64,000 nucleotides of DNA. Origin: a virus. The stretch is taken from the IMG/VR virus record IMGVR_UViG_3300042398_001385, positions 1-64,000 of that record; one strand, given 5' to 3'. Below the pieces are notes generated by a model that saw only the letters and a list, made by a program, of their open reading frames with translations, was not told where the DNA came from and ran no database searches. Below are positions 27,496-49,009 of the stretch, piece by piece. Made by a program: the position numbers and the translations under genes. Positions within the stretch are counted from its first letter, which is position 1. Each line of letters opens with the position of its first letter.

Positions 27496-28206
27496 TTATA
27501 AGTTCCATTTTTCTTTAAATAGTGGATAAGATCCGCTAGTCATCTTATACATCTGATCATAATCTTTAACTACCCTTTCTGTTGTTTTACCTATGTTGTT
27601 ATCGTGGTGTATAACAATAGAATTAGTAACTAATACGTGTTTTATCTTATTCGTAAACAACTCCATAGAATAATCATTGTCACAATACCAGTGCTGAAAT
27701 CTTTCATCCAAATCTCCTATTCTTTCATAAATTTCTCTTTTCTGTATTATACACCATCCAGAAATTTGTTTCCTTATTTCATATCCTTCAATAAGACCCA
27801 TGTTTTCATTTATTCCATAAAGAGTCTGTGTCATAGGACATAAGGGAGAAAAAGAAAGAGCTTCAGGTACTGTTGAAGATGCTTCAAGTATTCTAGTAAA
27901 CCAGTCTTTTGTAAATTCAAGATCATTATTACAAAGAGCAACCCATGGTGAATTTCCTTTCTTTCTACCAAAGTTTAAAAACTTATGATATCCGTAAGGA
28001 AGAGGAGATTCATATGTTTTTACATTTATTGACATCCAGTCCCAGCTAACACCTTGCTCGGATTCAACTACTATTATATTAAAATCGTCTACTGCATTCT
28101 CTTCAGAATATAATAAGGAAAAAATACAATTCTTTGTTAGCTCCTTACAATAATCGTCTTTTGCGTAGCTAACTATAACTATATCTAATAATTTATCTTG
28201 CATCAT
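27496..28206 (-). CDS. Family 2-like glycosyltransferase (GT-A)
   Basis: The N-terminal strand LLDIVIVSYAKDD, the donor-site region WVALCNNDLEFTKDWF (N-N-D in place of D-x-D), and the later DNDYSMEL and HHDNN match GT2 enzymes, as in rhamnosyl- or fucosyl-transfer clusters. The 236-residue length is near a minimal GT-A domain. The gene overlaps kdsA by 14 bp. Donor and acceptor cannot be read from sequence. Confidence 0.85.
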   Translation of the reverse strand: MMQDKLLDIVIVSYAKDDYCKELTKNCIFSLLYSEENAVDDFNIIVVESEQGVSWDWMSINVKTYESPLPYGYHKFLNFGRKKGNSPWVALCNNDLEFTKDWFTRILEASSTVPEALSFSPLCPMTQTLYGINENMGLIEGYEIRKQISGWCIIQKREIYERIGDLDERFQHWYCDNDYSMELFTNKIKHVLVTNSIVIHHDNNIGKTTERVVKDYDQMYKMTSGSYPLFKEKWNL

Positions 28207-28996
28207 AAATCTTTCTAGCTTTACCTATTATACTTTCTAGATTTGAAAGTTCTAGCATATTTTCAGAGTCAGATGGAGAAAGATGTGGATAGGGATGTGT
28301 TTCTATAAACAATCCATCTGCATCCATCACTGCACCAAATCTAACCATATCTTCTATCAGATCTCCTCTACCCTCAGTTTTTCCACTAATCCCATTAGGT
28401 CTCTGTAAACTGTGTGTACAATCCATTATTATTTTAGATCTGGTACATGATTTCTTTAATCTTGATATAGAAGTGGCATCTACTATTAAATCATTGTAAC
28501 CAAAGCTATTACCTCTTTCTCCTATTAATAGCTCCTTCCCTCCTGATTTATAAAATTTATCTTCTATAAATTTACACGATTCAGGGGAAAGAAATTGTCC
28601 CTTTTTAATAAGTACAGGTAGACCTGTTTTAGCACACTCTTCTATTAGATCAGTTTGTCTACAAAGGAAAGCAGGTATCTGTAAATAATCAACAACAGAA
28701 GCTACTTTTTCAACTTGATGTGTCTCGTGTACATCTGTTATTATCTGCATATTTAATCTAGAATTTATTTTTTTTAAAATTTCTAGACCTTTATCTATAC
28801 CAATTCCTCTAAATCCCCCTGATGATGTTCTATTGGCTTTATCAAAACTCGCTTTAAATATAGTATGATAGTTATGTAGTAATCCACATCTCCTAACTTC
28901 AGTAGCAATCTCAAAGCAAGTGTCCCAGCTTTGTATAACACAAGGACCTCCTATAAGAATTCTAGTTTTTTGATCTTTGACCGAGATATCCTCCAT
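28193..28996 (-). CDS. kdsA: 3-deoxy-8-phosphooctulonate (Kdo-8-P) synthase
   Basis: The 267-residue protein carries the family marks: GGPCVIQSWD, FKASFDKANRTS, then RGIGIDKGLEIL, IITDVHE, LQIPAFLCRQTDL, and GQFLSPESC, GERGNSFGYNDL and IMDCTHSLQRP. It condenses arabinose-5-phosphate with phosphoenolpyruvate. The Cys in IMDCTHS and the Cys in GPCV resemble sequence features around the active site; whether it is metal-dependent is not certain from sequence alone. It overlaps kdsD by 35 bp, giving two consecutive Kdo-pathway steps. Kdo-8-P phosphatase and CMP-Kdo synthetase are not in the window. Confidence 0.92.
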   Translation of the reverse strand: MEDISVKDQKTRILIGGPCVIQSWDTCFEIATEVRRCGLLHNYHTIFKASFDKANRTSSGGFRGIGIDKGLEILKKINSRLNMQIITDVHETHQVEKVASVVDYLQIPAFLCRQTDLIEECAKTGLPVLIKKGQFLSPESCKFIEDKFYKSGGKELLIGERGNSFGYNDLIVDATSISRLKKSCTRSKIIMDCTHSLQRPNGISGKTEGRGDLIEDMVRFGAVMDADGLFIETHPYPHLSPSDSENMLELSNLESIIGKARKIYDAR

Positions 28997-29537
28997 GGTG
29001 TAATTTTGAGTATTCTTTTTTGGTAAAATTCTTATCCATTAATCCAATAACTATTAAATCAGATATCACAGACATACAAGTTGTAGAAGTTGTTGGAGTT
29101 AATCCCATGGGACATATCTCCTCAACAGGACCAAATTCAATATAGTCTGCACATTTTATAGAGATATCTTCGGTTTTGGTTCCGACTATAGCATATATGT
29201 AATTACCATACTCTAAATTATGTACAAGATCAATAAGTTCTAAAACCTCTCTAGTTTTACCGGAATTACTAAAAACTATAATTACGTCACCCGGTTGAAC
29301 TATTCCCAAATCACCGTGCTGGGCTTCAGATGGGTGTAAGAAAAAAGAAGGTGTTCCTGTTGAGGATAAAGTAGTGGCAAAGGTATGTGCGATATGTCCA
29401 GCTTTTCCCATACCAGAAGTTATTACTCTTCCATGTCCGATATACCTTCTTATCTGAGAAACTAAATTACTTACTCTCTGTATTGGTATTTTTTTTAGAG
29501 CTTCTATCTCTTTCTCTATTAATAATTTATAATCCAT
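28962..29537 (-). CDS. kdsD: Arabinose-5-phosphate isomerase (SIS domain only)
   Basis: The SIS domain is clear: VITSGMGKAGHIAHTFATTL, FFLHPSEAQHGDLGIVQPGD, VFSNSGKTREVLELI, then EICPMGLTPTTSTTCM and a final LHHGGYLG. These are hallmarks of KdsD/KpsF/GutQ, which convert ribulose-5-phosphate to arabinose-5-phosphate. The protein is 191 residues and lacks the C-terminal CBS pair of the bacterial enzyme of about 325 residues. Its coupling to kdsA supports the Kdo role. Confidence 0.9.
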   Translation of the reverse strand: MDYKLLIEKEIEALKKIPIQRVSNLVSQIRRYIGHGRVITSGMGKAGHIAHTFATTLSSTGTPSFFLHPSEAQHGDLGIVQPGDVIIVFSNSGKTREVLELIDLVHNLEYGNYIYAIVGTKTEDISIKCADYIEFGPVEEICPMGLTPTTSTTCMSVISDLIVIGLMDKNFTKKEYSKLHHGGYLGQRSKN

Positions 29538-30549
29538 AGGATTTTATTTTATCTTCTATCATTTCATCTATTATATGAGAAAGAGAAAGTTTTGGTTCCC
29601 ATCCTAATACTTTTTTAGCATCGCTAGCATCTCCTATTAATAAATCAACCTCAGATGGTCTAAAATATTTGCTATCTACTTCTATTATTTTTTTACCAGT
29701 TTCTTTTACTACACCAATTTCTTCAACGCCTTCTCCAAGGAATTCAATTTCCATATCTAATTTAATTGATGTCATTTCTACAATTTCTCTTATTGTATAA
29801 GAAACCCCGGTAGCTAAAACAAAATCCCTAGGCGTTTCTTGTTGTAGCATACTCCACATACCCTCAACATATTCTTTGGCGTGTCCTATGTCTCTTGAAG
29901 AATTTAGATTACCTAATTTTAAAATATCAGATTTACCAAGTTTAATATCTACTAATCCATCAACTATTTTCTTCTCTACAAAATTTTCACCTCTTCTAGG
30001 AGATGTATGATTGAAAAGAATACCATTACAAGCAAATATGTCGTATGCTTCCCTATAGTTTTTTATTATCCAAAATCCATAAAGCTTAGCAACTCCATAG
30101 GGGCTTCTTGGATAAAATGGGGTTCTTTCTGTTTGTGGCGTTTCTTGAACCATTCCATATAGTTCAGAAGTTGAAGCCTGATAGAGTTTAGTATTCGGAG
30201 AATGAGTTCTTATAGATTCTAATACATTCAAAGTACCTATTGCATCTACTTGACCAGTATAATAAGGAATTTCAAAAGAAATCTTAACGTGGCTCTGTGC
30301 AGCTAGATTATAAAACTCGTCTGGCTTAATACTAGAAATTAAATTACTAATAGAAACTGGATCTGTTACGTCAGCATAATACCAATTAAACATAGGATTA
30401 TTTCTAATGTGATCTATTCTCCTTGTATTAAACGATGATGATCTTCTAATTGTTCCATGAACCTCGTATCCCTTATTGAGAAGAAGCTCCGCTAAATAAG
30501 ACCCGTCTTGCCCATTAACACCAGTTATAATCGCTTTTCTAATCGACAT
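29527..30549 (-). CDS. gmd: GDP-mannose 4,6-dehydratase
   Basis: This extended short-chain dehydrogenase of 340 residues has the NADP-binding G-x-x-G-x-x-G in ITGVNGQDGSYLAELLL, the family motif TIRRSSSFNTRRIDHI, YNLAAQSHVKISFE, catalytic Ser/Tyr/Lys in QASTSELYG and RSPYGVAKLYGFW, and LFNHTSPRRGENFV. It converts GDP-mannose to GDP-4-keto-6-deoxymannose in the cytoplasm. It overlaps kdsD by 11 bp and follows fcl with a 25 bp overlap, so the GDP-fucose steps are coupled. GDP-mannose must come from the host. Confidence 0.96.
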   Translation of the reverse strand: MSIRKAIITGVNGQDGSYLAELLLNKGYEVHGTIRRSSSFNTRRIDHIRNNPMFNWYYADVTDPVSISNLISSIKPDEFYNLAAQSHVKISFEIPYYTGQVDAIGTLNVLESIRTHSPNTKLYQASTSELYGMVQETPQTERTPFYPRSPYGVAKLYGFWIIKNYREAYDIFACNGILFNHTSPRRGENFVEKKIVDGLVDIKLGKSDILKLGNLNSSRDIGHAKEYVEGMWSMLQQETPRDFVLATGVSYTIREIVEMTSIKLDMEIEFLGEGVEEIGVVKETGKKIIEVDSKYFRPSEVDLLIGDASDAKKVLGWEPKLSLSHIIDEMIEDKIKSYGL

Positions 30550-31469
30550 ATTGTATTTTTATAATATTCGTAAGTTTTTTTAATCCCCTCTTCTATTGTA
30601 TGAGAAGGTCTCCATCCTGTTTCAAAAATTTTAGAAACATCCATAACTTTTCTGTATGTACCATCAGGATATTTGTAATTAAATTTTATTTTTCCCTTGT
30701 ACCCTATCACTTCAGATATTAATAAAGAAAGATCAGATATTGAAATATCATTTCCTGATCCTACATTTATAATATCTTCAGATGAATAATTCTCAGATAA
30801 ATGAATTAATGCTTCTGCTAAATCGTCAACATATAAAAATTCTCTCATAGGTTTTCCTGTTCCCCATACCTCGACATAACTTGAATCTGCTTCTTTTGCT
30901 TCGTGAAATTTTCTAATTAGAGCAGGGAGAACATGACTTGTGTCTAGATTAAAATTATCCCCAGGTCCGTAAAGATTACAAGGCATAACAGATATGTAAT
31001 CTCTTCCGTATTGTTGTCTATAAGACTGACACATCTTAATCCCAGCAATCTTGGCTATTGCATAGGAATCATTGGTTGTCTCTAAATGGCCAGTCATTAA
31101 ATATTCTTCCTTTATAGGAATTGGTGAATCTTTAGGATATATGCAGGAAGATCCAAGAAAAACTAATTTGCTAACATTGGACAAGTGACAAGCTTCTATA
31201 ACATTTATCTGTATTTTAAGATTGGTAGTTATAAAATCAGCTTTATAATCATTGTTTGCTTTTATTCCCCCAACCTTGGCTGCACACATAAAAACTAAGT
31301 CTGGTTTATTTTTTATAAAATATCCGATAACCTGGGATCTATCTTCAAGATCTAAGCTATATCTTTTTGGAGTAAGTATGTTTGAATTTGGATATTTATC
31401 CCTATATTTTTTATAAAGATTAGAGCCAACTAACCCAGTAGATCCCAATATTAATATTTTTTTATCCAT
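30525..31469 (-). CDS. fcl: GDP-L-fucose synthase
   Basis: The 314-residue SDR epimerase/reductase has ILGSTGLVGSNLYKKY, then CAAKVGGIKANN, FLGSSCIYPKDSPIPIKEE, the active-site DSYAIAKIAGIKMCQSYRQQ, MPCNLYGPGDNFNLDTSHVL and VWGTGKPMREFLYVDDLA. Each is diagnostic for Fcl/WcaG, which makes GDP-L-fucose from the Gmd product. It sits between the GT11 gene (1 bp) and gmd, making a continuous fucose supply and transfer unit. Confidence 0.96.
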   Translation of the reverse strand: MDKKILILGSTGLVGSNLYKKYRDKYPNSNILTPKRYSLDLEDRSQVIGYFIKNKPDLVFMCAAKVGGIKANNDYKADFITTNLKIQINVIEACHLSNVSKLVFLGSSCIYPKDSPIPIKEEYLMTGHLETTNDSYAIAKIAGIKMCQSYRQQYGRDYISVMPCNLYGPGDNFNLDTSHVLPALIRKFHEAKEADSSYVEVWGTGKPMREFLYVDDLAEALIHLSENYSSEDIINVGSGNDISISDLSLLISEVIGYKGKIKFNYKYPDGTYRKVMDVSKIFETGWRPSHTIEEGIKKTYEYYKNTICRLEKRL

Positions 31470-31470
31470 T

Positions 31471-32217
31471 TTAGATTATTATCCAATTTTTACAATATAA
31501 ATCATCCGTTATTACTCCTTTTTTTGCTGGACCAAACCACTTAGAAGGAGATATTACTTTCTTATTATTATTTTTATTTAACCAAGCTCCCCACCAAGAA
31601 AAACTAGAATTTGCTATAATATTATTTTTACAAGAAGACATTAAACATAAATCTTTTATATCAGAATTTTCTGAAATATATTCAATATCATTAAAAGCTG
31701 TAAAAAATTCTCTGCACCAACTAATGTCATCAGAAAAAACATAAAACTTTTTAACGCCCGAGTTCCTCATATATTCTATAGATTTATTATAGTAATCAAT
31801 CCCAGGAAATGGATGATAATCGCTAAGATTAACATAATCTCCTCTTCTTATATGAATAGAACAGGTCTCTTCATTATTGTCTATAGAATCATCATATAAT
31901 GAATCAACAAAATCAAAATGATATAATATCTTATCCTCACAGTGAGAAAAATACTTATAAGACTGAAAATATCCAATTAAGTCCACATTATCCATATTAG
32001 GAATAGGATCATAATTAAAATTTTTCTCCCGGTAGATATTTTTTATTTCCGATGAATTTAAACTCTGGTCTATAGGATTTTTAAAAAAATCAGAATAATC
32101 CCACGAATAGAATTTAGCTTCTTTTGAGTATAAATTTGCTGTTCCTATACATGAAGCTATTTGGAATAACTGATTTCCTAATCTTCCGAAAGAACCGATT
32201 TTAGAGAATGTTATCAT
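31471..32217 (-). CDS. GT11-family fucosyltransferase (alpha-1,2-fucosyltransferase-like)
   Basis: The N-terminus SFGRLGNQLFQIA and the donor-binding CSIHIRRGDYVN and NIIANSSFSWWGAWLN are the conserved GT11 motifs, and the order and 248-residue length fit short bacterial members. GT11 enzymes transfer fucose from GDP-fucose, usually in alpha-1,2 linkage to galactose. The next two genes in transcription order make GDP-fucose, so donor supply and transferase are together. Confidence 0.93.
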   Translation of the reverse strand: MITFSKIGSFGRLGNQLFQIASCIGTANLYSKEAKFYSWDYSDFFKNPIDQSLNSSEIKNIYREKNFNYDPIPNMDNVDLIGYFQSYKYFSHCEDKILYHFDFVDSLYDDSIDNNEETCSIHIRRGDYVNLSDYHPFPGIDYYNKSIEYMRNSGVKKFYVFSDDISWCREFFTAFNDIEYISENSDIKDLCLMSSCKNNIIANSSFSWWGAWLNKNNNKKVISPSKWFGPAKKGVITDDLYCKNWIII

Positions 32218-33185: not shown

Positions 33186-33814
33186 CTATTTACCTTATAG
33201 TTTCTTAACACGTCTATAAGAGGTTCCTTATCTTTTTTAATCCAAATTGTAGTTCCCATGTAGGTATCCTCAAAATGTATTTCTACGTAATTTGAAGGAA
33301 CTTGCACGATGTTATATCCATATATGTTTTTTAAAACCCTATTATGATCTCTACTTGTATCATGAGCGGCAATTATATCAGCTTTATCAAAAGAAAGATT
33401 AACTAGATCTCCCCTGAGATGTATACCAGCGTCTACGAAAATAAAATCGTATGCGCTATTGCTAATAAATGGATCCGTTATTTTTTTAAGGACTTTAAGA
33501 TATTTAGTATCTTCTAGAGGAAATCTTAATTTTTGTGCTCTTTGATCAGCATTAGATATTTCCTCAGGAACGTTTACGTAATGCGATTCCCAATTATCGT
33601 AATCTTTTAATTTTTCCTTAGTTTTCTCATACCACTCCAAATTATATGATCCTAGTGATAACTCCACTGATGTTACCTTTTCACAATTTTCAAGTAGGAA
33701 TTCAGTTCCTACGCCTAATCCAAACTCTAAAAAATTATTTATTTTTTCATGCGAGAATATTTCTCTAAAATAATAATTCCAATCTTGAGGAGGACCTAAT
33801 TCATATTTTTTCAT
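33182..33814 (-). CDS. SAM-dependent methyltransferase-like protein
   Basis: A Rossmann core is visible: NNFLEFGLGVGTEFLLENC (motif I), VTSVELS (acidic motif II), SAYDFIFVDAGIHLRGDLVN and ADIIAAHDTSRDHN, where the His-Asp end resembles Methyltransf_24. The protein has 210 residues. It probably acts on the glycan or its carrier, judged only by context. Confidence 0.7.
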   Translation of the reverse strand: MKKYELGPPQDWNYYFREIFSHEKINNFLEFGLGVGTEFLLENCEKVTSVELSLGSYNLEWYEKTKEKLKDYDNWESHYVNVPEEISNADQRAQKLRFPLEDTKYLKVLKKITDPFISNSAYDFIFVDAGIHLRGDLVNLSFDKADIIAAHDTSRDHNRVLKNIYGYNIVQVPSNYVEIHFEDTYMGTTIWIKKDKEPLIDVLRNYKVNR

Positions 33815-35106
33815 ATTTCTATTTTTATTTCATAAGCACCATAGATAGTATCTATTTCATTATAATATATCCAAACCTTCTTCGGTTCTTTTATATTTAA
33901 TATTTCTATTAATTTTTTAAACTGATTGTTGTATAATGTATTAGCCCTTTTTATATTTTTTTTTAGATTATCTCTTTTTAATTCATATTCCCTTTCTAGT
34001 TTAATAAATTTACCCACCAAATTCTTCAAGTTTAATTTAGAGTTTGTGGGTATTATTAAATCATGAGATTCTATACTCATCATATAATTTAGTGACTTGA
34101 TATTATAAGCTAGACATATAGAGGGTATGTTGAACGAATTTAATAATATATTAGCATGTAACCTAGTAGCGATACAAAATTTTAGATCTGAGCAAAATTC
34201 AACTAATGATTCAATTTCTCCGTAGTTAAAGGATTTACATAAAATATTAATATCCTTATATTTATCAATATCATTTATCATTCTAATGAGTTCTTCGTGT
34301 ATTCCTCTTTCACCTTCGCCCATAGAATAAAATATTATATTATACCCCCTATCTAATATCCAAATACAGTGATTAAATATAGAATCGACCAATCTTTTTC
34401 TATAATCATCATAACTCTCATTTTTAATTCCTATTCTCCCTTCCCCGGTAACCTCAGCTAAATTTATTCCTATATTTTTAGAATCTAAATTATTCTTATG
34501 AGTAAATAATCCGGACAATAATATACCGGGATCATAAATAAATGGCTTTGAAAATTTTTTATTTATAGATTTAGCTATATTTATATCTAAAGGTCCTCTC
34601 ACTCCTCCAATATTGCAACAGGAAATAGAATCTATATTAATTTTCATTAAATCGTTAACAGGAAAATCAACCTCTTTAGTTTTTCCTGTTAATAATTCAT
34701 TTCTATTCTTATCTGGTATTTTAAAATTAGATGTATCGCTTATTCCTGTACCAAAGCAAAATTTAGCTAATAGTTTTTTTTCATTTTTTAATACCCCTAT
34801 AGTGTAAGATATTTCCTCTGGATGTATTAAAGAACCTCCTCCTATAACACCTATATTACAACCGCTAACCCAATTGTTACCGGAAGCCCACTTTAATAAC
34901 GATTTCTCTAAGAAACAATTAACATTATATTTTTTATCTATAGCTTTTTTTAAAAATCCCATAAATATTTCAAAAAGTACATCGTCCCCAAGATTTCCAC
35001 TGTTTAAGCATCCAGTATAAAACCCTCTAAATACAAGATCCCCATTCCTATTAATATTACTTCTTCTATTAATCCTATTTAGATAAAATGTATTGATATC
35101 CATCAA
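33811..35106 (-). CDS. Polysaccharide pyruvyl transferase-like protein
   Basis: The features of the family are present: GNLGDDVLFEIFM near the N-terminus, IGVIGGGSLIHPEE, CFGTG, GVRGPLDINIAKS, INLAE, and late CIATRLHANILLNSFNIPSI, then SLNYM. Such enzymes add ketal-linked pyruvate to sugars or act as related transferases. The 431-residue protein has a Lys-rich helical end. It overlaps the next methyltransferase by 32 bp. Confidence 0.85.
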   Translation of the reverse strand: MMDINTFYLNRINRRSNINRNGDLVFRGFYTGCLNSGNLGDDVLFEIFMGFLKKAIDKKYNVNCFLEKSLLKWASGNNWVSGCNIGVIGGGSLIHPEEISYTIGVLKNEKKLLAKFCFGTGISDTSNFKIPDKNRNELLTGKTKEVDFPVNDLMKINIDSISCCNIGGVRGPLDINIAKSINKKFSKPFIYDPGILLSGLFTHKNNLDSKNIGINLAEVTGEGRIGIKNESYDDYRKRLVDSIFNHCIWILDRGYNIIFYSMGEGERGIHEELIRMINDIDKYKDINILCKSFNYGEIESLVEFCSDLKFCIATRLHANILLNSFNIPSICLAYNIKSLNYMMSIESHDLIIPTNSKLNLKNLVGKFIKLEREYELKRDNLKKNIKRANTLYNNQFKKLIEILNIKEPKKVWIYYNEIDTIYGAYEIKIEI

Positions 35107-35775: not shown

Positions 35776-36537
35776 TTATCTATATTTTGAAATATTTATA
35801 CTGGTAAAATCATTATCTATTAATGGATTTCTAGCTACTATCAATCCGTCGTGTGAATATGACTCATTCATATCATGCTCACATAATATTTTAAATTCTT
35901 TATTTATTAAAAAAGATAGACATTCCTCATGTAAGAATTCTTTAGGAGCTCCCCAGGATTCGCCTTTATTGTTTTTATCTGTATGTGTAGATATAAAAAT
36001 ATAGCCAACATTTTTTATAAAATCTCCTAGCTGCTCTAATAAATGATACTCCCATCCTTGTATATCCACATGAAGTATATCTATAAAACTAATTGATTGA
36101 TCAGTTATAAAATCTAGAATATTCAATTCAGGGATTTTTCCTATATGAAAACTTCCCTCCATGTTATTAATATTAAAATTCTCCACACCTAAATTAAGAT
36201 TAATCGAATCGACATCAATCATAAAATTTTTAGCATCCTTTATTTTTTGATTAAACCACATAGAATAATAAGCCCATGAAGATCCAACCTCAATCATTAA
36301 TCCCCCTTCCTTTATTTTCTCAAGAACTTTATAAAAAGCAAACTCCTCCTGTGGTTCGTGGTGGCCTTTACATTTTAATATTAATTCTGTCATCCATTCT
36401 CCACAATAACAATCCCTTATTATTTTTATCCCATTGTGCATTATTTGGAAATTATCCAATATATTTCCGCTATTTAAATCTCTATCTAGAGAATCACAAT
36501 CTTTACATAATAAGGCTTTATCTATTCTGGTAAGCAT
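35776..36537 (-). CDS. FkbM-like methyltransferase
   Basis: The core reads GGLMIEVGSSWAYYSMWF, then FMIDVDSINLNLGVENF, and SFIDILHVDIQGWEYHLLEQ, the typical FkbM D-x-x-H/K-x-D-x-Q/E-G-x-E motif, followed by ISTHTDKN. The N-terminal 30 residues have a C-x-x-C (LLCKDC) that may bind metal. 253 residues. FkbM enzymes O-methylate sugars. Confidence 0.8.
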   Translation of the reverse strand: MLTRIDKALLCKDCDSLDRDLNSGNILDNFQIMHNGIKIIRDCYCGEWMTELILKCKGHHEPQEEFAFYKVLEKIKEGGLMIEVGSSWAYYSMWFNQKIKDAKNFMIDVDSINLNLGVENFNINNMEGSFHIGKIPELNILDFITDQSISFIDILHVDIQGWEYHLLEQLGDFIKNVGYIFISTHTDKNNKGESWGAPKEFLHEECLSFLINKEFKILCEHDMNESYSHDGLIVARNPLIDNDFTSINISKYR

Positions 36538-37427
36538 TCTATTATCTGTTTTATTCTATTTACGTATGTATGTTTTTCTTTGACCTCATTCATCAAATAC
36601 CTTAATTTTTCAATATGATCCGGAGAATTTTTAAATTCTATGGATTTATTAAAAAGCTCTATTGTATCCCTACTATAGATAAGCTCTTCATTAAATAATG
36701 AATTTACACTTGGTGAATTAACGTAACCCATATGCCCATAAGATATATTTTTAAATATCCTGCAAGGAATATATTCATTTTCTATTTGCCAAGGTCCTTG
36801 TATAGTAGGGGAAATATATGAAGAATTTACCATGTTCCTATTTTGTTCAAAAGAAACAGGAGATGACCATGGATTTATCTTAATAACATCTATTCCGTTT
36901 TCATTACAAGAATTAAAAAAAGGATCCAATTCAGTACCGTTTTGATAGATACCAGTAGAATCTCCGAATGTTCCTATCCAAAGGCAGCTCTTTGGATTTT
37001 GTATATTTTTTGCAAGATCTAGATCTATTTCAGATGGTAGGAGATCTGTTGCCCAACAAGTATATAATGTATCAATAGTATCTTTCTTTATAAAAGTATA
37101 ATCGTTTATTATCTCGCTTTTAAAAAATTCATCGGTTTTAGTATTAACCTGTAAAACTAATATCTTACATTCCTTATCAATATATTTTTTACCATCAACA
37201 TTATGTAAAACATAATACGAGTTTTTATTTAAGGGTATATTTTTTTCCTGCTCTCCTGCAGTAATAAACAAACATTCATCAAAACCTATATCATCATAGT
37301 TTTCGTCGCTAAACCAATATGTATCGTATCCCATACTTTTAAAAGCTTTATAAAAAGAAGCATGGATATATGAGTGTGTATGGGTATTTAATGGATAACC
37401 CCATATTATTACTTTTTTAAATTTCAT
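36522..37427 (-). CDS. Putative glycosyltransferase
   Basis: I use the ATG at 37427 (MKFKKVIIWGYPLNTHTHSY), 2 bp after the upstream stop; the longer frame starts at a TTG. Features are VIIWGYPLNTHTHSYIHASF, CLWIGTFGDSTGIYQNGTEL, ISPTIQGPWQIENEYIPCRI, SYGHMGYVNSP. The last segment, with an E-x-x-I-P-x-R and a Gly-rich loop, resembles the C-terminal nucleotide-binding half of GT-B enzymes. Specificity is unknown. Confidence 0.6.
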   Translation of the reverse strand: MKFKKVIIWGYPLNTHTHSYIHASFYKAFKSMGYDTYWFSDENYDDIGFDECLFITAGEQEKNIPLNKNSYYVLHNVDGKKYIDKECKILVLQVNTKTDEFFKSEIINDYTFIKKDTIDTLYTCWATDLLPSEIDLDLAKNIQNPKSCLWIGTFGDSTGIYQNGTELDPFFNSCNENGIDVIKINPWSSPVSFEQNRNMVNSSYISPTIQGPWQIENEYIPCRIFKNISYGHMGYVNSPSVNSLFNEELIYSRDTIELFNKSIEFKNSPDHIEKLRYLMNEVKEKHTYVNRIKQIIECLPE

Positions 37428-37429
37428 TT

Positions 37430-38017
37430 TTATTCTTTGATAATATACCAATCTTCAAAAGGAAAACCGTTATGTGTTACGTTTTCTCTTTCAATAATAT
37501 AACCATTTTTATTAAGTATTTTTTGTATCTCTTTTTTTCTATATTCACCGTCTGAATATAAATTATGCTCTATAGTAATAGCTCCAAATTTCCAATCACT
37601 AAAAGGAAAGTTTTCTATTATAGCTATCTCGTTACCCTCTACGTCTATTGATAAATAATCTATAAACCGGGGTGCATTATTTTTAATTAATATATTTTCT
37701 AGAGTATCACATTCTATAAAATAATCATAGGAATCATTTATTTTGCTACCCATTTCAGAACTGCTAAAAGGTACTTTTCCTTTAAAATTATTAACTGCAA
37801 CATTTTCACATATACAGTCTCTATTTTTAACAAGTGATTGATAATTTTTTAGATCTGGCTCTATACATATGCCATTCCATTTTAGGTTTTTTTCAAAATA
37901 TAAGGTATTACTATAGTTAACACCATCGTAAGCACCTATATCTAAAAAATATCCATTTTTTTTAGAATTTGTTTTTTCTAAAACCCATTGGTCCTGTCCT
38001 GCTTGTGAATAAAACAT
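37430..38017 (-). CDS. FkbM family methyltransferase
   Basis: The start at 38017 gives the classic opening MFYSQAGQDQWVLEKTNSKK and spares a TTG-started extension that would overlap the upstream gene. Then come GYFLDIGAYDGVNYSNTLYF (motif I), NGICIEPDLKNYQSL and PRFIDYLSIDVEGNEIAIIE. All are diagnostic of the FkbM family; 195 residues. It probably O-methylates a sugar in the glycan. Confidence 0.88.
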   Translation of the reverse strand: MFYSQAGQDQWVLEKTNSKKNGYFLDIGAYDGVNYSNTLYFEKNLKWNGICIEPDLKNYQSLVKNRDCICENVAVNNFKGKVPFSSSEMGSKINDSYDYFIECDTLENILIKNNAPRFIDYLSIDVEGNEIAIIENFPFSDWKFGAITIEHNLYSDGEYRKKEIQKILNKNGYIIERENVTHNGFPFEDWYIIKE

Positions 38018-38019
38018 TT

Positions 38020-38640
38020 TTATTTTAATTTCCAGTTCTCCCAAACCCAATCATAGCACCATGTGCATTCATGAGTATTTTTTAATAATTCGTTTATTCT
38101 TTCTCTTCTTTCCTCTGCACCAGGAATAAAAGTGTGATATTGTACCTGTATATTTTTTACTCTACATATTAGTTCAGAATCAGATACTAGCCTTTCTAAT
38201 AAATTATATTCTTCTCCCTCTATGTTTATTTTAATCAGATCTATTGAATCTATATTTAGCTCTTTTATTACCTCAGATATGTTTCTTAATATTATAGCCT
38301 CTCTATTAGCATCGTCTATAGGAGTTATAGAGCTAGCATCTTCAGAAATATAGATGCTGGAGATTATATTATCCTTAGATAATCCATATTTAAGATTTCT
38401 TATTTTAGAAATGTGGCCAAATTTGAAATCGCAAGCTTTGTGAAATTCATCAACAGGTTCAAATAAATAAATATTAGATCCATATCTAGTATAAATAGAT
38501 TCAGTAAATGTTCCTAAATAACCACCGACATCAAAGACTACAGATTTCTCGTTTAATTCAGGATAATCTAGTCTTTTATAAACATCACCCTTATCTATAA
38601 ACCATCTTTTTACATTCTCCTTAAATATATCGTTTATCAT
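38020..38640 (-). CDS. FkbM family methyltransferase
   Basis: VVFDVGGYLGTFTESIYTRY is motif I, NIYLFEPVDEFHKAC supplies the ribose-binding acidic residue, and IDLIKINIEGEEYNLLERL is the FkbM D-x-x-K-x-x-x-E-G-x-E motif. 206 residues. It is the second of three FkbM-type genes in 2.9 kb but is quite diverged from its neighbours, arguing against recent duplication. Confidence 0.88.
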   Translation of the reverse strand: MINDIFKENVKRWFIDKGDVYKRLDYPELNEKSVVFDVGGYLGTFTESIYTRYGSNIYLFEPVDEFHKACDFKFGHISKIRNLKYGLSKDNIISSIYISEDASSITPIDDANREAIILRNISEVIKELNIDSIDLIKINIEGEEYNLLERLVSDSELICRVKNIQVQYHTFIPGAEERRERINELLKNTHECTWCYDWVWENWKLK

Positions 38641-38643
38641 ATT

Positions 38644-39261
38644 TTATGCTTTGGTTTTTAATTCACTTATTCTGTAATATAAAAGAACATCAGGAAGTAT
38701 TTTAAATTTAGCTCCTTTAGTGAGAAGTCTTTTCCACATGCAAAAATCATCAGATGCAATTTCCTCCGATATTAGATTTTCGTTATAATCTAGTATTTTT
38801 CTACTATAAGCACATGCAGGATGTGCAATTATATTGTGATTATTTGAAAATTCTTTAAAAATATCAAGTTCTTCAAATTTTGTACGATGTATATTTTCCC
38901 TTGTCTCGCTAAAAGAAATATAGTTTCCTGACATAACAGAAATCTCAGGATCAAAATTATCTATTTGTAATTTTACCCTGTCTAGTGGATATCTGTCATC
39001 AACGTTTGTATTTAATATTAAATCATAACCTAATGAAAAGCATCTTTCCAATAGATAATTGTGAGCCTGCGCATGATCATTAAGATTTAATGATATAAAT
39101 TCACTATTTTCAAATATTCTTTCCTCGCCGCCTCCATAATTTAATTCAAATATATCGAAGTCTTTATTTGTTTGATTTATTATACTATCCCTATATTTTT
39201 CTATCCATTCAATCGGATATCTACCTATATTTTTATGAAATGATATTAATGCTGTTCTCAT
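38644..39261 (-). CDS. Family 2-like glycosyltransferase
   Basis: The opening TALISFHKNIGRYPIEWIEK, the donor region YDLILNTNVDDRYPLDRVKL, then VMSGNYISFS, NIIAHPACAYS and SDDFCMWKRLLTKGAKFKIL follow the GT2 order (strand, D-D motif, acceptor loop, E/D-D base). 205 residues. It overlaps the GT6 gene by 4 bp. Confidence 0.85.
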   Translation of the reverse strand: MRTALISFHKNIGRYPIEWIEKYRDSIINQTNKDFDIFELNYGGGEERIFENSEFISLNLNDHAQAHNYLLERCFSLGYDLILNTNVDDRYPLDRVKLQIDNFDPEISVMSGNYISFSETRENIHRTKFEELDIFKEFSNNHNIIAHPACAYSRKILDYNENLISEEIASDDFCMWKRLLTKGAKFKILPDVLLYYRISELKTKA

Positions 39262-40163
39262 GATCTTATTTCTTTATGGTCTTTGTCTAATAGTAGTATT
39301 TTACATATGAATTTTTCTCTCCCTCCCCATGATTCATATATTTTATGATTGTTCTCCGGATAATGATACGAAGGACTTAAAACTTTAGTAGGAACTAATG
39401 TAGTGAGATATTTATTTATAGCTGATTCATCGTGCCATATAGGAATTATTCCCATACTTTCGTCAAGATTTATAATAGTCATACAAAAACTAGACATCTT
39501 AAAAAATTCGTCTCTATTAAAAGAATAAAATCCACCTCCATAATAATTTTTAGCCTCCCTTACAGGAACGTAGCATTTAGATAATTGTCTTTTCTCAAAT
39601 GATCCCAATTTATTAACAAACCCGCAGTGCTGTGTTACTGTTATAGGATATAGTATTTCTGTTCCTATATTTTCTTTAATTAAAGTATCAGCGTCTATGT
39701 ATATTAATTGTTCACCTATTATCTTATCTGAATAAGTATTAAAAAAATGAAATCTCTTGAGCGTAGGATAAGGAAAAGGCCTATGTTCTATTGGTAATAT
39801 TTGATAATTTACTCCTTTTATTTTAATATCCTTATCTGTAAATATATTATAGTATTTTTTATTTTTTGGAAGTACAAATTTTTCTATAGATTCTATCAAG
39901 GGCTCAACAAAAACGTCGTATTTACCAGTTGCTACTATTAAAAATCCAACCTCCGTAGAATATTTACTCTCGTCGTTTTCATACTCACTGTGCAAAGGGT
40001 AATGGTTATTCATAAAATCATTTTCTTTAATTTCTTTATCTTTTTTATCCCCATTGGATTCACCTTCCTCAGAATTTATTTTTTTATTCTCTGAATTTTT
40101 AAATCTTATTGGTGGGCCAAATCTATTAACTAGCTGCCTACCGATGTTTTTTTTACCACTCAT
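39258..40163 (-). CDS. GT6-family glycosyltransferase (ABO blood-group transferase family)
   Basis: The start at 40163 (MSGKKNIGRQLVN) follows the upstream stop by 7 bp; a longer form would need TTG. After about 70 polar residues the catalytic domain begins at VGFLIVATGKYDVFVEPLIE. It has the metal-binding D-A-D (LIYIDADTLI), the acceptor/donor loop NYYGGGFYSF, IPIWHDESAINKYL with the W-H-D-E-S signature containing the proposed catalytic Glu, and PTKVLSPSYHYPE. This matches vertebrate and bacterial GT6 enzymes, which add alpha-1,3 Gal or GalNAc, usually to fucosylated Gal. D-x-D is retained, whereas bacterial GT6 proteins have N-x-N. The Gly at the A/B-deciding position hints at GalNAc, weakly. 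Confidence 0.92.
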   Translation of the reverse strand: MSGKKNIGRQLVNRFGPPIRFKNSENKKINSEEGESNGDKKDKEIKENDFMNNHYPLHSEYENDESKYSTEVGFLIVATGKYDVFVEPLIESIEKFVLPKNKKYYNIFTDKDIKIKGVNYQILPIEHRPFPYPTLKRFHFFNTYSDKIIGEQLIYIDADTLIKENIGTEILYPITVTQHCGFVNKLGSFEKRQLSKCYVPVREAKNYYGGGFYSFNRDEFFKMSSFCMTIINLDESMGIIPIWHDESAINKYLTTLVPTKVLSPSYHYPENNHKIYESWGGREKFICKILLLDKDHKEIRS

Positions 40164-40170
40164 ACAATAT

Positions 40171-40974
40171 TTATATAATGCTAGGACAATCTTTTTTACC
40201 AACTTCTGCTTCTTTTATTATTTTAACTAGTTTATTTTGGTCCATAGAAACAAACTCATTAAAAAGCTTTTCATTTAAATTAAGATTTTTAGTGTCCTTT
40301 GATCTATGATTTAAATGAGCAGCTTCATAAGGAATTCTGTACATTGTCTCATCATTTCTATTCAATAAAAACTTTATAGTTTCCGTTGCTGCTTTATCTT
40401 CCCATCCATATCTGAAAAAATTTTCGTTATATCCTCCGAACGTATTCCAAAACCAATTTTTATTATAAACCAATATAGCTCCATATCCACAACCCCTTGT
40501 CATAGATCTAAATTTAAAAACCTCATCTCTTGGCTCTCCCCCTTTGTTTCTTAAATTGCTAAAATTCCTAGTCCTTATCCATTCGGTAGTTGGATTTTCA
40601 TGATTACACCAATAATAAGTTTCTGCTCCGGCAGCAAATTCTCCTTTAAATTCACTTATTTTAGTAAAATATTCCTTTTCGAAAACAAAATCCGAATCCA
40701 TTAGAACTATTATCTCCCCTTCAGCCTCTCTTGCACCTACGTTTCTGCACCAGCTTAGATTAAAACCTCTATTCCCGGGGTCCTTTATTCCGATATGTTT
40801 ATATTGAATTATATTATTATTCTGTTTATAAAATCTTCCGTCTAGTGACTGCTCTATTACTATTACTTCAAAATCTCTAAATGTCTGTTCGTTTATACAT
40901 TTAAGGCATTCATTAAAATTTCTATTTCTCTGCGGATCATTTCCTGCTGTTGGTAAAATGATAGATAATCTCAT
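40171..40974 (-). CDS. GT2-type glycosyltransferase with galactosyltransferase-like C-terminal part
   Basis: The N-terminus has GT2 features (LSIILPTAGNDPQRN; EIIVLMDSDFVFEKEYF with D-x-D). The second half contains SMTRGCGYGAILVYNKNWFW and GGYNENFFRYGWEDKAATE, the G-G-x-N-E-x-F-x-x-x-G-W-E-D pattern of the GT7 C-terminal/galactosyl- and GalNAc-transferase fold. The 267-residue protein could transfer Gal or GalNAc in beta linkage, the acceptor normally used before GT11 and GT6; this is inference. Confidence 0.85.
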   Translation of the reverse strand: MRLSIILPTAGNDPQRNRNFNECLKCINEQTFRDFEVIVIEQSLDGRFYKQNNNIIQYKHIGIKDPGNRGFNLSWCRNVGAREAEGEIIVLMDSDFVFEKEYFTKISEFKGEFAAGAETYYWCNHENPTTEWIRTRNFSNLRNKGGEPRDEVFKFRSMTRGCGYGAILVYNKNWFWNTFGGYNENFFRYGWEDKAATETIKFLLNRNDETMYRIPYEAAHLNHRSKDTKNLNLNEKLFNEFVSMDQNKLVKIIKEAEVGKKDCPSII

Positions 40975-45213: not shown

Positions 45214-46047
45214 ATGGATAAAAAAATATTATCTTTCGAAGAATTTAGCTCAAAAAAACCTCAAGAATTGCCAGAAGAGAATGAATTCTGGAATGATATG
45301 GAAATAGAGGAGGAGGAAGAAGAAGAAGATGAAGAGGACGACATGGACCTAGAAGACGAAGAGGAAGATGACATGGACCTAGAAGACGAGGATGAAGAGG
45401 AAGATGACATGGACATGGAAGACGAGGACGAGGATGAAGACGAGGACGAAGAGGAAGATGACATGGACCTAGAAGACGAGGATGAAGACGAGGATGAAGA
45501 CGAGGATGAAGACGAGGATGAAGACGAAGACGAAGACGAGGATGAAGACGAGGATGAAGACGAGGATGAAGACGAGGATGAAGACGAAGACGAAGACGAG
45601 GATGAAGACGAGGATGAAGACGAGGATGAAGACGAAGACGAGGACGAAGACGAGGACGAAGACGAGGACGAAGACGAGGACGAAGACGAGGATGAAGACG
45701 AGGACGAAGACGAGGATGAAGAGGAAGATGACATGGATCTAGGAGACGAGGATGAAGAGGAAGATGACATGGATCTAGGAGACGAGGATGAAGACGAGGA
45801 TGAAGAGGAAGATGACATGGATCTAGGAGACGAGGATGAAGACGAGGATGAAGAGGAAGATGACATGGATCTAGGAGACGAGGAAGAAGAAGACGATGAA
45901 GAAGATGAAGAGGACGACATGGACCTAGAAGACGAAGAGGAGGAGGAAGAAGAAGAAGACACAGAAGAGGAGGATGAATCCGAATTAGAAGGTGAAGAAA
46001 ATAATGAAGTAGAGGTTATACGATTCGATAACTTCTTCGGTAAATAA
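45214..46047 (+). CDS. Hyperacidic Asp/Glu repeat protein with capsid-targeting-like start
   Basis: The start MDKKILSFEEFSSKKPQEL resembles the capsid-targeting motif. From about residue 29 to 260 the protein is almost only Asp and Glu: a central strictly alternating (Glu-Asp) run of roughly 80 residues, flanked by nine D-D-M-D-L/M motifs (four before, five after). It ends with VEVIRFDNFFGK. In T4 the core protein gp67 also has a long acidic tail, so an enlarged acidic core protein is the best analogy; a DNA-mimic effector is an alternative. A terminator follows 20 bp after the stop. Confidence 0.75.
   Translation: MDKKILSFEEFSSKKPQELPEENEFWNDMEIEEEEEEEDEEDDMDLEDEEEDDMDLEDEDEEEDDMDMEDEDEDEDEDEEEDDMDLEDEDEDEDEDEDEDEDEDEDEDEDEDEDEDEDEDEDEDEDEDEDEDEDEDEDEDEDEDEDEDEDEDEDEDEDEDEDEDEDEDEEEDDMDLGDEDEEEDDMDLGDEDEDEDEEEDDMDLGDEDEDEDEEEDDMDLGDEEEEDDEEDEEDDMDLEDEEEEEEEEDTEEEDESELEGEENNEVEVIRFDNFFGK
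45297..45960 (+). repeat. Acidic codon microsatellite, GAAGACGAGGAT-type units
   Basis: The DNA is a low-complexity array of 6 and 12 bp units (GAAGACGAGGAT, GAGGATGAA) with three longer units containing GATGACATGGATCTAGG near the 3' end. It encodes the Asp/Glu tract. Units are nearly identical, so copy number is likely to vary by slippage or recombination. Confidence 0.9.
45481..45600 (+). repeat. Exact 60-bp tandem duplication inside acidic tract
   Basis: Bases 45481-45540 and 45541-45600 are identical over all 60 positions, and 45601-45630 repeats the first 30. Silent differences (GAT/GAC, GAA/GAG) elsewhere in the tract are not shared so exactly, so this looks like a recent duplication. 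Confidence 0.93.
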
Positions 46048-46117: not shown

Positions 46118-47617
46118 ATGGATTACTCATTACTAGAAAAGTTTGTATTTAAGGGAGTTAAAGGAAAGGAAAGACCCTTAACAGTTGTTATATTAACTAC
46201 TAAACTTGGTAAAAGTCTAAAAAATGCTCCAACAACAGATAAGATAATGAAAATCTGTGAGGAGAAGGGAGTTAGATGTATAATAATAGATACTGAAAAA
46301 GGATCTATACAAAAAACAATAAAAGGAACTTTTCTTATATCAAGCAGAGGGGGAAAACAACAAGAAATACATCTGGATAGAACCATAGTATTAACTAGAA
46401 GATCGTCTATAAAAAACAATGCAGCTAAGGGATTTTTTAAAAAAATGGAGGATCTAGGTTTTCCGTGTGTCAATTCCTATGATTCTGTTATTATATGTGA
46501 AGATAAACTACAGACTACAAGAAAATTACAGTTAGCTAAAATACCTGTTCCTAAAACATCATTAATATCATCTGAAGCTGATATAGATAAAGCAGTAGAA
46601 GAGGTTGGTGGTAATTATCCAGTTGTTTGTAAATTTCTATCAGGAACTAAAGGAATAGGTGTATTTATGATAGACTCTAGACCATCTCTAGTTTCTACCT
46701 TACAGGCTTTGTGGCACTTAGCACCAGGGACTGAAATAGTTTTACAAGAAAAAATAGATGCAGATTACGATCTTAGAATACACGTAGTTGCAGAAAGTGA
46801 TGGTATGGCAAGTAGAGAATACAAAGTCATAGCAGCAATGAAAAGAATAAAAATAGAGGGGGATTTTAGAACTAATTTTTCTTTAGGTGGTGAAACGGAG
46901 AATGTTAAGCTTTCGAAAGAAATAGAAAGGATAGCAATAGAATCTGCTAAAGCTACCGGATGTTTATGGTGTGGTGTAGATATTATAGTAGAAAAAGGAA
47001 AAAGTACATCAGCAGAGGAAAAACCTTATGTTCTAGAGGTTAATGCCTCTCCCGGAACTACTGGTATAGAAAAAACAACTGATATTCCTGTAACAGATAT
47101 GGTAGTAGATTTTCTTTTAGATAAGAAAAACTGGGTTAAACCTAAGAAAACTACCGGATTTAGAGAAATGGTGACTATATCTGGAGTAGGAACTTTTGTA
47201 GGTAAATTAGATACTGGTAACGGAGCAACTTCTTGTAGTTTACATGCAGACAGCATAGAGGAATCCGATGGTAAAGTTTACTGGAAGCTAGGTAATCAAG
47301 AATTTGTAAATAAAATAGTAGGTCAATCAAAAGCTGAGGTTGGTGAAAAAATACACCACAGAGCGGTTGTTAATCTCGATGTAGATTTCAATGGTCTTGT
47401 ATATAAGAAAGTTAAGTTCTCATTAGTAGATAGAACTGAAAAAAGTACCCCATTATTACTAAACAGGGATTTTTTAAGTTCCGCCGGATTAGTTGTAGAC
47501 CCTTCGGAGGATTTTGTTTTAACTGACAGACCTGAGGGATATTCACCAAAAGATGCAAAAGGAGATCCTATAGCTGGGGTTAAGGTAGTTAAATCAAACG
47601 GGAATTCCGAGAAATAA
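46118..47617 (+). CDS. RimK-like ATP-grasp ligase fused to RimB-type retropepsin domain
   Basis: I use the ATG at 46118 (MDYSLLEKFVFKG); a TTG-started extension would overlap the terminator. Residues about 105-330 are an ATP-grasp domain: TRKLQLAKIPVPKTSLI, PVVCKFLSGTKGIGVFMI, QEKIDADYDLRIHVV, AAMKRI, and PYVLEVNASPGTTGIE. This is RimK-type, the family that adds glutamate to ribosomal protein S6 C-termini. Residues about 345-490 match the RimB/retropepsin-like protease domain: GKLDTGNGATSCSLHAD, and LLLNRDFLSSAGLVVDP. 499 residues. Such fusions could add and trim poly-amino-acid tails. The 3' end overlaps the convergent asnB gene by 24 bp. Confidence 0.88.
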   Translation: MDYSLLEKFVFKGVKGKERPLTVVILTTKLGKSLKNAPTTDKIMKICEEKGVRCIIIDTEKGSIQKTIKGTFLISSRGGKQQEIHLDRTIVLTRRSSIKNNAAKGFFKKMEDLGFPCVNSYDSVIICEDKLQTTRKLQLAKIPVPKTSLISSEADIDKAVEEVGGNYPVVCKFLSGTKGIGVFMIDSRPSLVSTLQALWHLAPGTEIVLQEKIDADYDLRIHVVAESDGMASREYKVIAAMKRIKIEGDFRTNFSLGGETENVKLSKEIERIAIESAKATGCLWCGVDIIVEKGKSTSAEEKPYVLEVNASPGTTGIEKTTDIPVTDMVVDFLLDKKNWVKPKKTTGFREMVTISGVGTFVGKLDTGNGATSCSLHADSIEESDGKVYWKLGNQEFVNKIVGQSKAEVGEKIHHRAVVNLDVDFNGLVYKKVKFSLVDRTEKSTPLLLNRDFLSSAGLVVDPSEDFVLTDRPEGYSPKDAKGDPIAGVKVVKSNGNSEK

Positions 47618-49009
47618 TCTTATTACCTCTTTTCTATATTTAATCTGATCATCTATGATCATCTTATTTTTTAAAGCTAGTTTGCTTCTTTCTATTACAG
47701 AATCAGGAACTAATCCCTTAAAAGTATCCTTTAATATCTTTTTATTTTTTCTTTCCTCGAAAGGAAGACTTATAGCAAATCTAATTATATCGTGATTTAA
47801 AAAAGGACTTCTTAATTCTAGTGTATGCGCCATCGATAGCTTATCTAATCGGGGAAGATGATAATAAGTTAATTCGTGAAATATATCAGAATGCTGTGAA
47901 TCATACTCATTTATTCTTCTATATCCACCAAATAATTCATCTGCTCCGTCACCGGATATAACTATTCTTGTATTAGAACCTTTTTTTATTGCATCGAATA
48001 AATGATACTGAGGAACTACACTTCCCATATCAACTGGAGATTCGTTCCATTTTTTGTATATTTCTATGAGATTTTTTTTACCTGAATCGGATTCTATATC
48101 AATATTATAATTTAATCTTTTGGATTCTACATCCCAGTAGTATTCACAAGCTTTTACATATTCTTCATCTTCACCATTAGATATGGAATAAAAATCAACA
48201 TTTCCCCCAAGCTTTAGTAAAAGACCAGCAATTATTGAAGAATCCAATCCCCCTGATAAAAGTAGAGATGTTGGATAATTTTTAGATAATAATCTGGCTT
48301 CTACAGATTTTTCCATCTTATCAAAAAGCCATTCACATCTGTCATCATATGTATTTAGTCCTGCGTCGAAGAAGTTAAAATCGTAGTATTGGTCAGATAC
48401 ATTAATAATATGAGGAGAGTCTAGATTCCATTGATAGAATCTATTAGGTTCAAGCTTTTTTATACCTATAAAAGGAGTTTGTTCTGTAGCTAAATAACCA
48501 AATTTAGTAACGCCTGAAAAGAAAGATCTATCAAAATTGGGTCTTTCATTTTCTTCATATAATCCTTTTATCTCTGAACAGATCTCTCCTTTTTCGTTAC
48601 GATATAAACATTTTTTTCCAAGAGGATCTGTAAAAGCATAAATATCTCTTTTTTTAGTGTCAACCAAAACTATAGCCCAAAATCCATCCCATGAAACTAT
48701 GTGTGAATCATATAAAGCCTGTAGTATACCTATTCCTCCAAATTGGAATGTTGAAAACAATTTTTGTAAATAAGCTGTATCTGATTCGTAATTTCCGTAA
48801 TTAAAAATCTCTCCATTAAACAATAGCCATCTATCTTCACCTATTTGTATAGGCTGTGACCAAGAATCCCCATCTACTGTTTGTATAGGAAGTCTATGAT
48901 GTACTAAACAAAGGTCATCCTTATAAACTACATTATGTTCAATTCCTCTATGAGCAATAGACATTATTCTTTCCTCACTTGCTCTTTTTGCTACTAATAT
49001 ACCACACAT
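47594..49009 (-). CDS. asnB: Asparagine synthetase (glutamine-hydrolysing)
   Basis: Cys2 (MCGILVAKRASEERI) is the glutaminase nucleophile, followed by RGIEH, HHRLPIQTVD and LFNGEIFNYGNYESDT, class II amidotransferase motifs, in residues 1 to about 190. The synthetase domain has the PPi loop LLLSGGLDSSIIAG, ISGDGADELFGGYRR and LELRSPFLNHDIIRFA. It is 471 residues, shorter than AsnB (about 550). It makes amide from glutamine and ATP; in polysaccharide clusters relatives amidate uronic acids, so the substrate may not be aspartate. Confidence 0.93.
   Translation of the reverse strand: MCGILVAKRASEERIMSIAHRGIEHNVVYKDDLCLVHHRLPIQTVDGDSWSQPIQIGEDRWLLFNGEIFNYGNYESDTAYLQKLFSTFQFGGIGILQALYDSHIVSWDGFWAIVLVDTKKRDIYAFTDPLGKKCLYRNEKGEICSEIKGLYEENERPNFDRSFFSGVTKFGYLATEQTPFIGIKKLEPNRFYQWNLDSPHIINVSDQYYDFNFFDAGLNTYDDRCEWLFDKMEKSVEARLLSKNYPTSLLLSGGLDSSIIAGLLLKLGGNVDFYSISNGEDEEYVKACEYYWDVESKRLNYNIDIESDSGKKNLIEIYKKWNESPVDMGSVVPQYHLFDAIKKGSNTRIVISGDGADELFGGYRRINEYDSQHSDIFHELTYYHLPRLDKLSMAHTLELRSPFLNHDIIRFAISLPFEERKNKKILKDTFKGLVPDSVIERSKLALKNKMIIDDQIKYRKEVIRLFLGIPV

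Follow-up and report, generated by a model that had tools for sequence, protein, structure and literature searches.

In family GT6 glycosyltransferases the DXD motif ties with metal dependence, which has been published for an enzyme of this form from Parachlamydia acanthamoebae; GT6 had been counted in two cyanophages by 2014 (PMC3961637). In E. coli O86, the GT11 enzyme WbwK and then the GT6 enzyme WbnI build a B-like branch on the O-antigen (PMC4202792). Here we describe a GT6 gene in a stretch of 64,000 nucleotides (the window) taken from a virus record of 153,314 bases. Its likeness to the O86 pair lies in the pairing of a GT11 with a GT6, the E. coli genes being bacterial O-antigen genes whereas ours belong to a phage cassette.

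Three other described systems can be compared with the window gene directly. The GT6 of cyanophage P-SSM2 (AAX44645.1; PHROG 3317) is, like ours, a phage DxD enzyme encoded in a glycan cassette with a GT11, and its existence, which the original prediction had mentioned, was verified, the motif there being DVD. The two proteins are 34% identical and have the Arg/His tail in common, but P-SSM2 has AGG where the window protein has GGG, and the window protein lacks the Gly-Gly that follows. BoGT6a of Bacteroides ovatus (4AYJ), a metal-independent A-antigen synthase, is also 34% identical and shares family, fold and the acceptor residues except Thr245; however, it has NAN in place of DAD and no C-terminal Arg. 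Human GTA and GTB share the DxD, the WHDE, the C-terminal Lys and Arg and the fold at 29% identity, whereas the window protein has no membrane anchor and has Pro for Asp326. It is thus already known that phages carry DxD GT6 genes in glycan cassettes; judged by the literature, the novel elements are the counts of DxD enzymes in phages, a GT6–GT11 link assessed against a control, the fusions, and the presence of GT6 in probable non-cyanophages.

Identification of the GT6 gene and its virus

The membership of the open reading frame in family GT6 is near certain. The original prediction of an ABO-family GT6 in a phage was borne out by the PF03414 match (E 2.9e-28, 99 bits against a curated Pfam cut-off of 25 bits), by the match of human ABO chains in PDB (E 2.1e-28, with BoGT6a, 4ayj, at E 1.1e-27) and by the head genes of the same record; PHROG 3317, annotated as glycosyltransferase, matched with an E of 1.3e-36. 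The catalytic domain occupies approximately residues 67–301 and the N-terminal tail (residues 1–54) is disordered; an alternative TTG start is possible at 40202. In the AlphaFold2 model, pLDDT was 91–98 in most blocks of residues 71–270 and below 50 in the tail, and a Foldseek search with this model returned GTA/GTB as the best solved matches (E 2e-23), with BoGT6a at a TM-score (target) of 0.85. The modeled fold is that of GT-A enzymes, like GTA/GTB and BoGT6a. The best viral structure match was BFVD A0A5J6VM96, a 958-aa GT6 protein labelled as a Megaviridae environmental sample, whose length resembles that of multi-domain phage GT6 proteins.

The motifs quoted in the original prediction (WHDESAINKYL, PTKVLSP and IDADT) were found letter for letter, and the D-x-D is indeed intact, as DAD at residues 157–159. 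These residues correspond to D211/D213 of GTA, and W243, H244, D245 and E246 to W300–E303, so that the WHDE holds the equivalent of the catalytic Glu303. Towards the C-terminus, where the Lys is kept, Lys294, His296 and Arg300 correspond to K346, H348 and R352 of GTA. For these columns, the last residues of the human ABO reference, beyond the end of the PDB match, were supplied separately; the Lys and Arg positions were also taken straight from the bovine alpha3GT chain, in which the equivalent of Arg300 is Arg365. With these residues in place, metal dependence of the window enzyme is very likely.

Because the record encodes a major head protein and a head maturation protease (at 54–58 kb of the window), the label of phage is correct. 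The major head protein was nearest (39–42% identity) to those of uncultured huge phages and Prevotella (Lak) phages, with further matches to phages of Tenacibaculum, Flavobacterium, Chryseobacterium and Sphingomonas, whereas P-SSM2 is a cyanophage. On this basis a host in the Bacteroidota can reasonably be guessed at, though not stated with more confidence.

The glycan cassette

The GT6 gene belongs to an operon-like series of minus-strand genes at ~26.9–42.3 kb that overlap or are tightly packed, flanked by tail and head genes (Table 1). A source of fucosylated acceptor is present in this run, as genes for Gmd, a GDP-fucose synthase-like protein and a GT11 share the cassette with GT6. The HIRRGD of the GT11 conforms to HxRRxD, and its H122, R124, R125 and D127 were invariant in comparison with the GT11 proteins of P-SSM2 and ACG-2014f; this GT11 is likely the maker of a Fuc-alpha1,2-Gal acceptor. 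No gene for making UDP-GalNAc was identified within the window.

Table 1. Features of the minus-strand glycan cassette in the window.
Feature	Coordinates	Strand	Evidence and remarks
Kdo-8-phosphate synthase	28193..28996	(-)	NF003543 308.7 bits (above the cut-off of 242)
KdsD-like arabinose-5-phosphate isomerase	28962..29537	(-)	SIS domain and kpsF family, below cut-off
GDP-mannose 4,6-dehydratase (Gmd)	29527..30549	(-)	TIGR01472 484 bits (above the 415-bit cut-off); PF16363 E 2.4e-134
GDP-L-fucose synthase-like	30525..31469	(-)	NCBIfam NF047922 E 6.1e-130, 433 bits (below the strict 500-bit cut-off); PF01370 E 2.9e-62
GT11 alpha-1,2-fucosyltransferase-like	31471..32217	(-)	PF01531 E 1.8e-29; PHROG 2644 E 6.1e-57
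Polysaccharide pyruvyl transferase-like	33811..35106	(-)	PF04230 E 1e-6; missing at the same place in L254
Three FkbM-type methyltransferases and a 309-aa protein	35776..38640	(-)	PF05050 E 2.4e-16, 1.6e-9 and 2.9e-6
GT2-like g205	38644..39261	(-)	Overlaps the stop codon of GT6; counterparts in L002 and L015 are joined to GT6 in one ORF
GT6 glycosyltransferase	39258..40163	(-)	301 aa from ATG; PF03414, PDB matches, AlphaFold2 model, Foldseek
GT2 family glycosyltransferase	40171..40974	(-)	Directly upstream of GT6; PF00535 E 1.5e-10
Two genes with products of 245 aa and 207 aa	40974..42335	(-)	No Pfam match; 94% and 84% identity to sibling L254

We considered what the cassette might decorate. 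With tail genes on one side, head genes on the other and a gene order of lytic type, it might serve to decorate the virion itself, or some other molecule made by the phage, instead of the host envelope, and FkbM methyltransferases and glycosyltransferases have many possible targets. The run also includes genes for a Kdo-8-phosphate synthase and an arabinose-5-phosphate isomerase, which point to LPS or capsule chemistry, and similar cyanophage genes have been read in print as serving host surface change (PMC9602691); we therefore regard decoration of the virion as quite unlikely, and a target on the host surface as likely. That the phage carries both Kdo genes suggests an extra supply of Kdo for LPS or capsule. 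The KdsD-like isomerase is a protein of 191 aa without the usual second half.

Conservation in a sibling contig

A sibling contig (L254) retains nearly the whole cassette run in the same order, including the DAD of its GT6. The pyruvyl transferase-like gene, which differs in presence between the two contigs, marks a gain or loss in the cassette. Among the 19 genes common to the window and L254, the least conserved were GT11 (59% identity) and GT6 (60%), most others being at 78–94%. The dN/dS of GT6 was 0.26 for the gene, the highest in the cassette, and 0.23 for the catalytic domain, and the gene is under purifying selection. For GT11, dS was saturated, and as such the gene was possibly exchanged rather than fast-evolving.

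One feature of the window protein departs from its relatives. Directly after the donor loop, 90 of 91 other or related phage rows of the alignment have Gly-Gly, as do 80 of the 83 rows from bacteria, and its place is taken by Ser-Phe in the window, Leu-Phe in the sister L015 and Ser-Leu in L254. This substitution could mean that the activity of the window enzyme is changed or lowered. Taken together with the second-fastest divergence among the shared genes and the top dN/dS, the loss of Gly-Gly could even be read as a sign of a decayed or non-catalytic protein, retained for a binding role if for any. We hold this to be very improbable, given the open frame, the purifying selection and the retention of all known catalytic and metal residues in both the window and the sibling.

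Distribution of DxD and NxN enzymes

Viral GT6 relatives were gathered with an alignment query. The DxD form was found in 79 of the 80 best viral contigs and NxN in one, and all 11 annotated or deposited phage GT6 loci were DxD. The possibility that this dominance was an artefact of a DxD query was ruled out by a query headed by NxN sequences, with which 74 of 80 viral contigs (a set overlapping with the first) were still DxD. DxD is thus the normal form of GT6 in phages, spread well beyond cyanophages.

The picture in bacteria was mixed. The GT6 copies of the 80 best-matching bacterial loci divided into 37 DxD, 41 NxN and four others, a ratio biased to relatives of phage enzymes and not that of bacteria at large, since the loci were picked by likeness to the phage query. 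The bacterial DxD copies belonged mostly to Chlamydiota, Dependentiae, Verrucomicrobiota and Polynucleobacter. The original prediction had taken N-x-N to be the bacterial form; this describes the 41 NxN copies but fails for the 37 DxD copies and for the Parachlamydia enzyme (PMC3961637). It had further proposed that phages are a separate reservoir of the metal-dependent form, which we do not uphold: because DxD is common in bacteria and phage GT6 has long been known, phages are neither a separate nor the sole reservoir of DxD enzymes. Further variation of the metal motif was seen in three bacterial GT6 proteins (L145, L154 and L120), which have NGT or NGD instead of NxN.

The C-terminal Arg was kept in 77 of 79 DxD copies of the viral contigs, in 34 of 37 bacterial DxD copies and in no NxN copy. 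A lineage of Synechococcus phages is DxD but has His or Gln at this position in all seven of its rows.

Phylogeny

In a 131-row GT6 tree, computed with the DxD columns left out, the window protein grouped with phage sequences in a clade of seven rows (SH-aLRT 99) inside a nearly all-phage group of 41 rows (95). A single change between DxD and NxN suffices on this tree, which implies that, in the sampled tree, NxN arose by one change rather than being a property of bacteria as such. In a 50-row tree, in which the bootstrap is not fully settled, the window paired with L015 (100/91) within a phage clade (99/97). Forcing the window protein to group with the NxN rows cost 57 log units and was rejected (p-AU 0.00035); the placement inside bacterial N-x-N enzymes that would have contradicted the original prediction is accordingly not where the protein belongs. 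Grouping it with vertebrate GT6, represented in the same tree by two rows, cost 23 log units and was likewise rejected (p-AU 0.007). The GT6 of Synechococcus phages forms a second, separate phage lineage, which groups with DxD rows of Polynucleobacter and Omnitrophota.

Linkage and fusion of GT6 and GT11

Of the 80 viral loci with a GT6, 67 had a GT11 gene within the fetched flanks; so had 10 of the 11 annotated phage loci and, in bacteria, 51 of 80, and in phages GT11 and GT6 were always on the same strand. Both genes are rare, GT11 occurring in 103 and GT6 in 70 of 50,697 phage records. To distinguish this link from a general effect of glycan cassettes, viral FkbM methyltransferase loci were used as a control: GT11 was present in only 3 of 30 such loci without GT6, as against 10 of 11 with GT6, and the general effect was rejected as the explanation. 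When loci of at least 12 kb were compared, GT11 was present in 65 of 73 with GT6 and in 3 of 22 without (Fisher p 5.5e-11, uncorrected for kinship). The linkage counts include related phages and hence are not independent; when GT6 loci were restricted to those with less than 75% likeness to one another, GT11 was present at 31 of 38.

In two cases the enzymes are joined in one reading frame. A viral ORF of 990 aa (L015:9356-12325) consists of GT2, GT6, GT11 and GT7C-type domains, and is possibly a whole assembly line for an H-plus-A/B branch in one polypeptide. A second ORF (L171:2008-3738), on a contig binned as Kuenenia stuttgartiensis (MAG), joins an NxN GT6 to a GT11, apparently independently of the phage fusion. 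In the rest of the window's clade (IMG/VR contigs L014, L016, L022, L023 and L062), GT6 is the last domain of proteins of 744–928 aa that also contain a methyltransferase and/or a GT2, with GT11 as the next gene. GT6 is thus one domain of a 744–990 aa protein in all six relatives, whereas the window encodes it separately, as a protein with a disordered tail of 54 residues. The N-terminus of the L015 fusion, which matches PF00535 (E 5e-5), is homologous to the neighboring g205 of the window (38% identity over 210 columns, E 3e-39). In the window g205 directly follows GT6; the corresponding domain precedes GT6 in both L002 and L015. Correspondence of the GT2 gene at 40171-40974 to the GT7C-like domain of the fusion was not supported (BLASTP E 0.017).

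Predicted specificity and function

The donor loop of the window enzyme has Gly-Gly-Gly at ABO positions 266–268. An alpha3-GalNAc transferase has been proposed to need Gly at 266 or 268 (PMC4692239). As both positions are Gly in the window enzyme, its donor is more probably GalNAc than Gal, though the preference is slight. In the acceptor site, the residues at GTA positions H233, W300, H301, D302 and E303, and the Pro at 326, are the same in the window protein and BoGT6a; GTA Thr245 is replaced by Ser in the window, and GTA Asp326 by Pro in both. BoGT6a acts on fucosyl-lactose. A fucosylated acceptor is likely for the window enzyme as well.

It is important to note that GT6 and GT11 are 7 kb apart in the window, in a large cassette with many other transferases, and for this reason they need not share one glycan. 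Vertebrate alpha3GT works on unfucosylated acceptors, and a metal-dependent GT6 of that kind might act on galactose that carries no fucose, or on a different sugar in the cassette glycan, while GT11 acts elsewhere; the cassette has at least five other transferase-like genes, and 13 of 80 viral GT6 loci have no GT11 in the fetched flanks. Against this, GT6 is linked specifically to GT11 and the GDP-fucose genes, two GT6–GT11 fusions exist, and at GTA positions 233 and 326 the window shares His and Pro, respectively, with BoGT6a, which uses a fucosylated acceptor, where alpha3GT has Gln at 233. We consider a non-fucosylated acceptor rather unlikely.

The gene product is therefore, in our judgment, probably a metal-dependent, retaining alpha-1,3-glycosyltransferase of family GT6 that caps a fucosylated surface glycan by way of a phage cassette, its biochemistry being predicted from its relatives. 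In the pathway that we envisage, Gmd and the GDP-fucose synthase would provide GDP-fucose, GT11 would add fucose in alpha-1,2 linkage to a terminal galactose, giving an H-like structure, and GT6 would add GalNAc (or, less surely, Gal) in alpha-1,3 linkage to the same galactose. The resulting A- or B-like branch would be placed on the LPS, capsule or similar glycan of the infected host. The most likely benefit would be an altered host surface during infection, for example against superinfecting phages. That GT6 travels with its probable partner GT11 yields a direct, assayable prediction for many phage GT6 genes.

A broader reading can be put forward only tentatively, as possible but doubtful, namely that GDP-fucose synthesis, GT11 and GT6 (sometimes fused into one polypeptide) form a self-contained phage module that makes an ABO-like branch, and that the two enzymes building the branch diversify more quickly than the other cassette genes. 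The faster divergence of GT6 and GT11, if true, would fit a branch that serves as an antigen and is pressed by rivals that bind receptors.

Two further genes of the window were noted. At 45214-46047 it encodes a 277-aa protein that is a nearly pure Asp/Glu repeat and has 214 aa in the sibling contig, indicating that the length of the repeat varies. A glutamine-dependent asparagine synthetase-like gene, assigned by eye, lies at 47594-49009 and is also present in the sibling contig.
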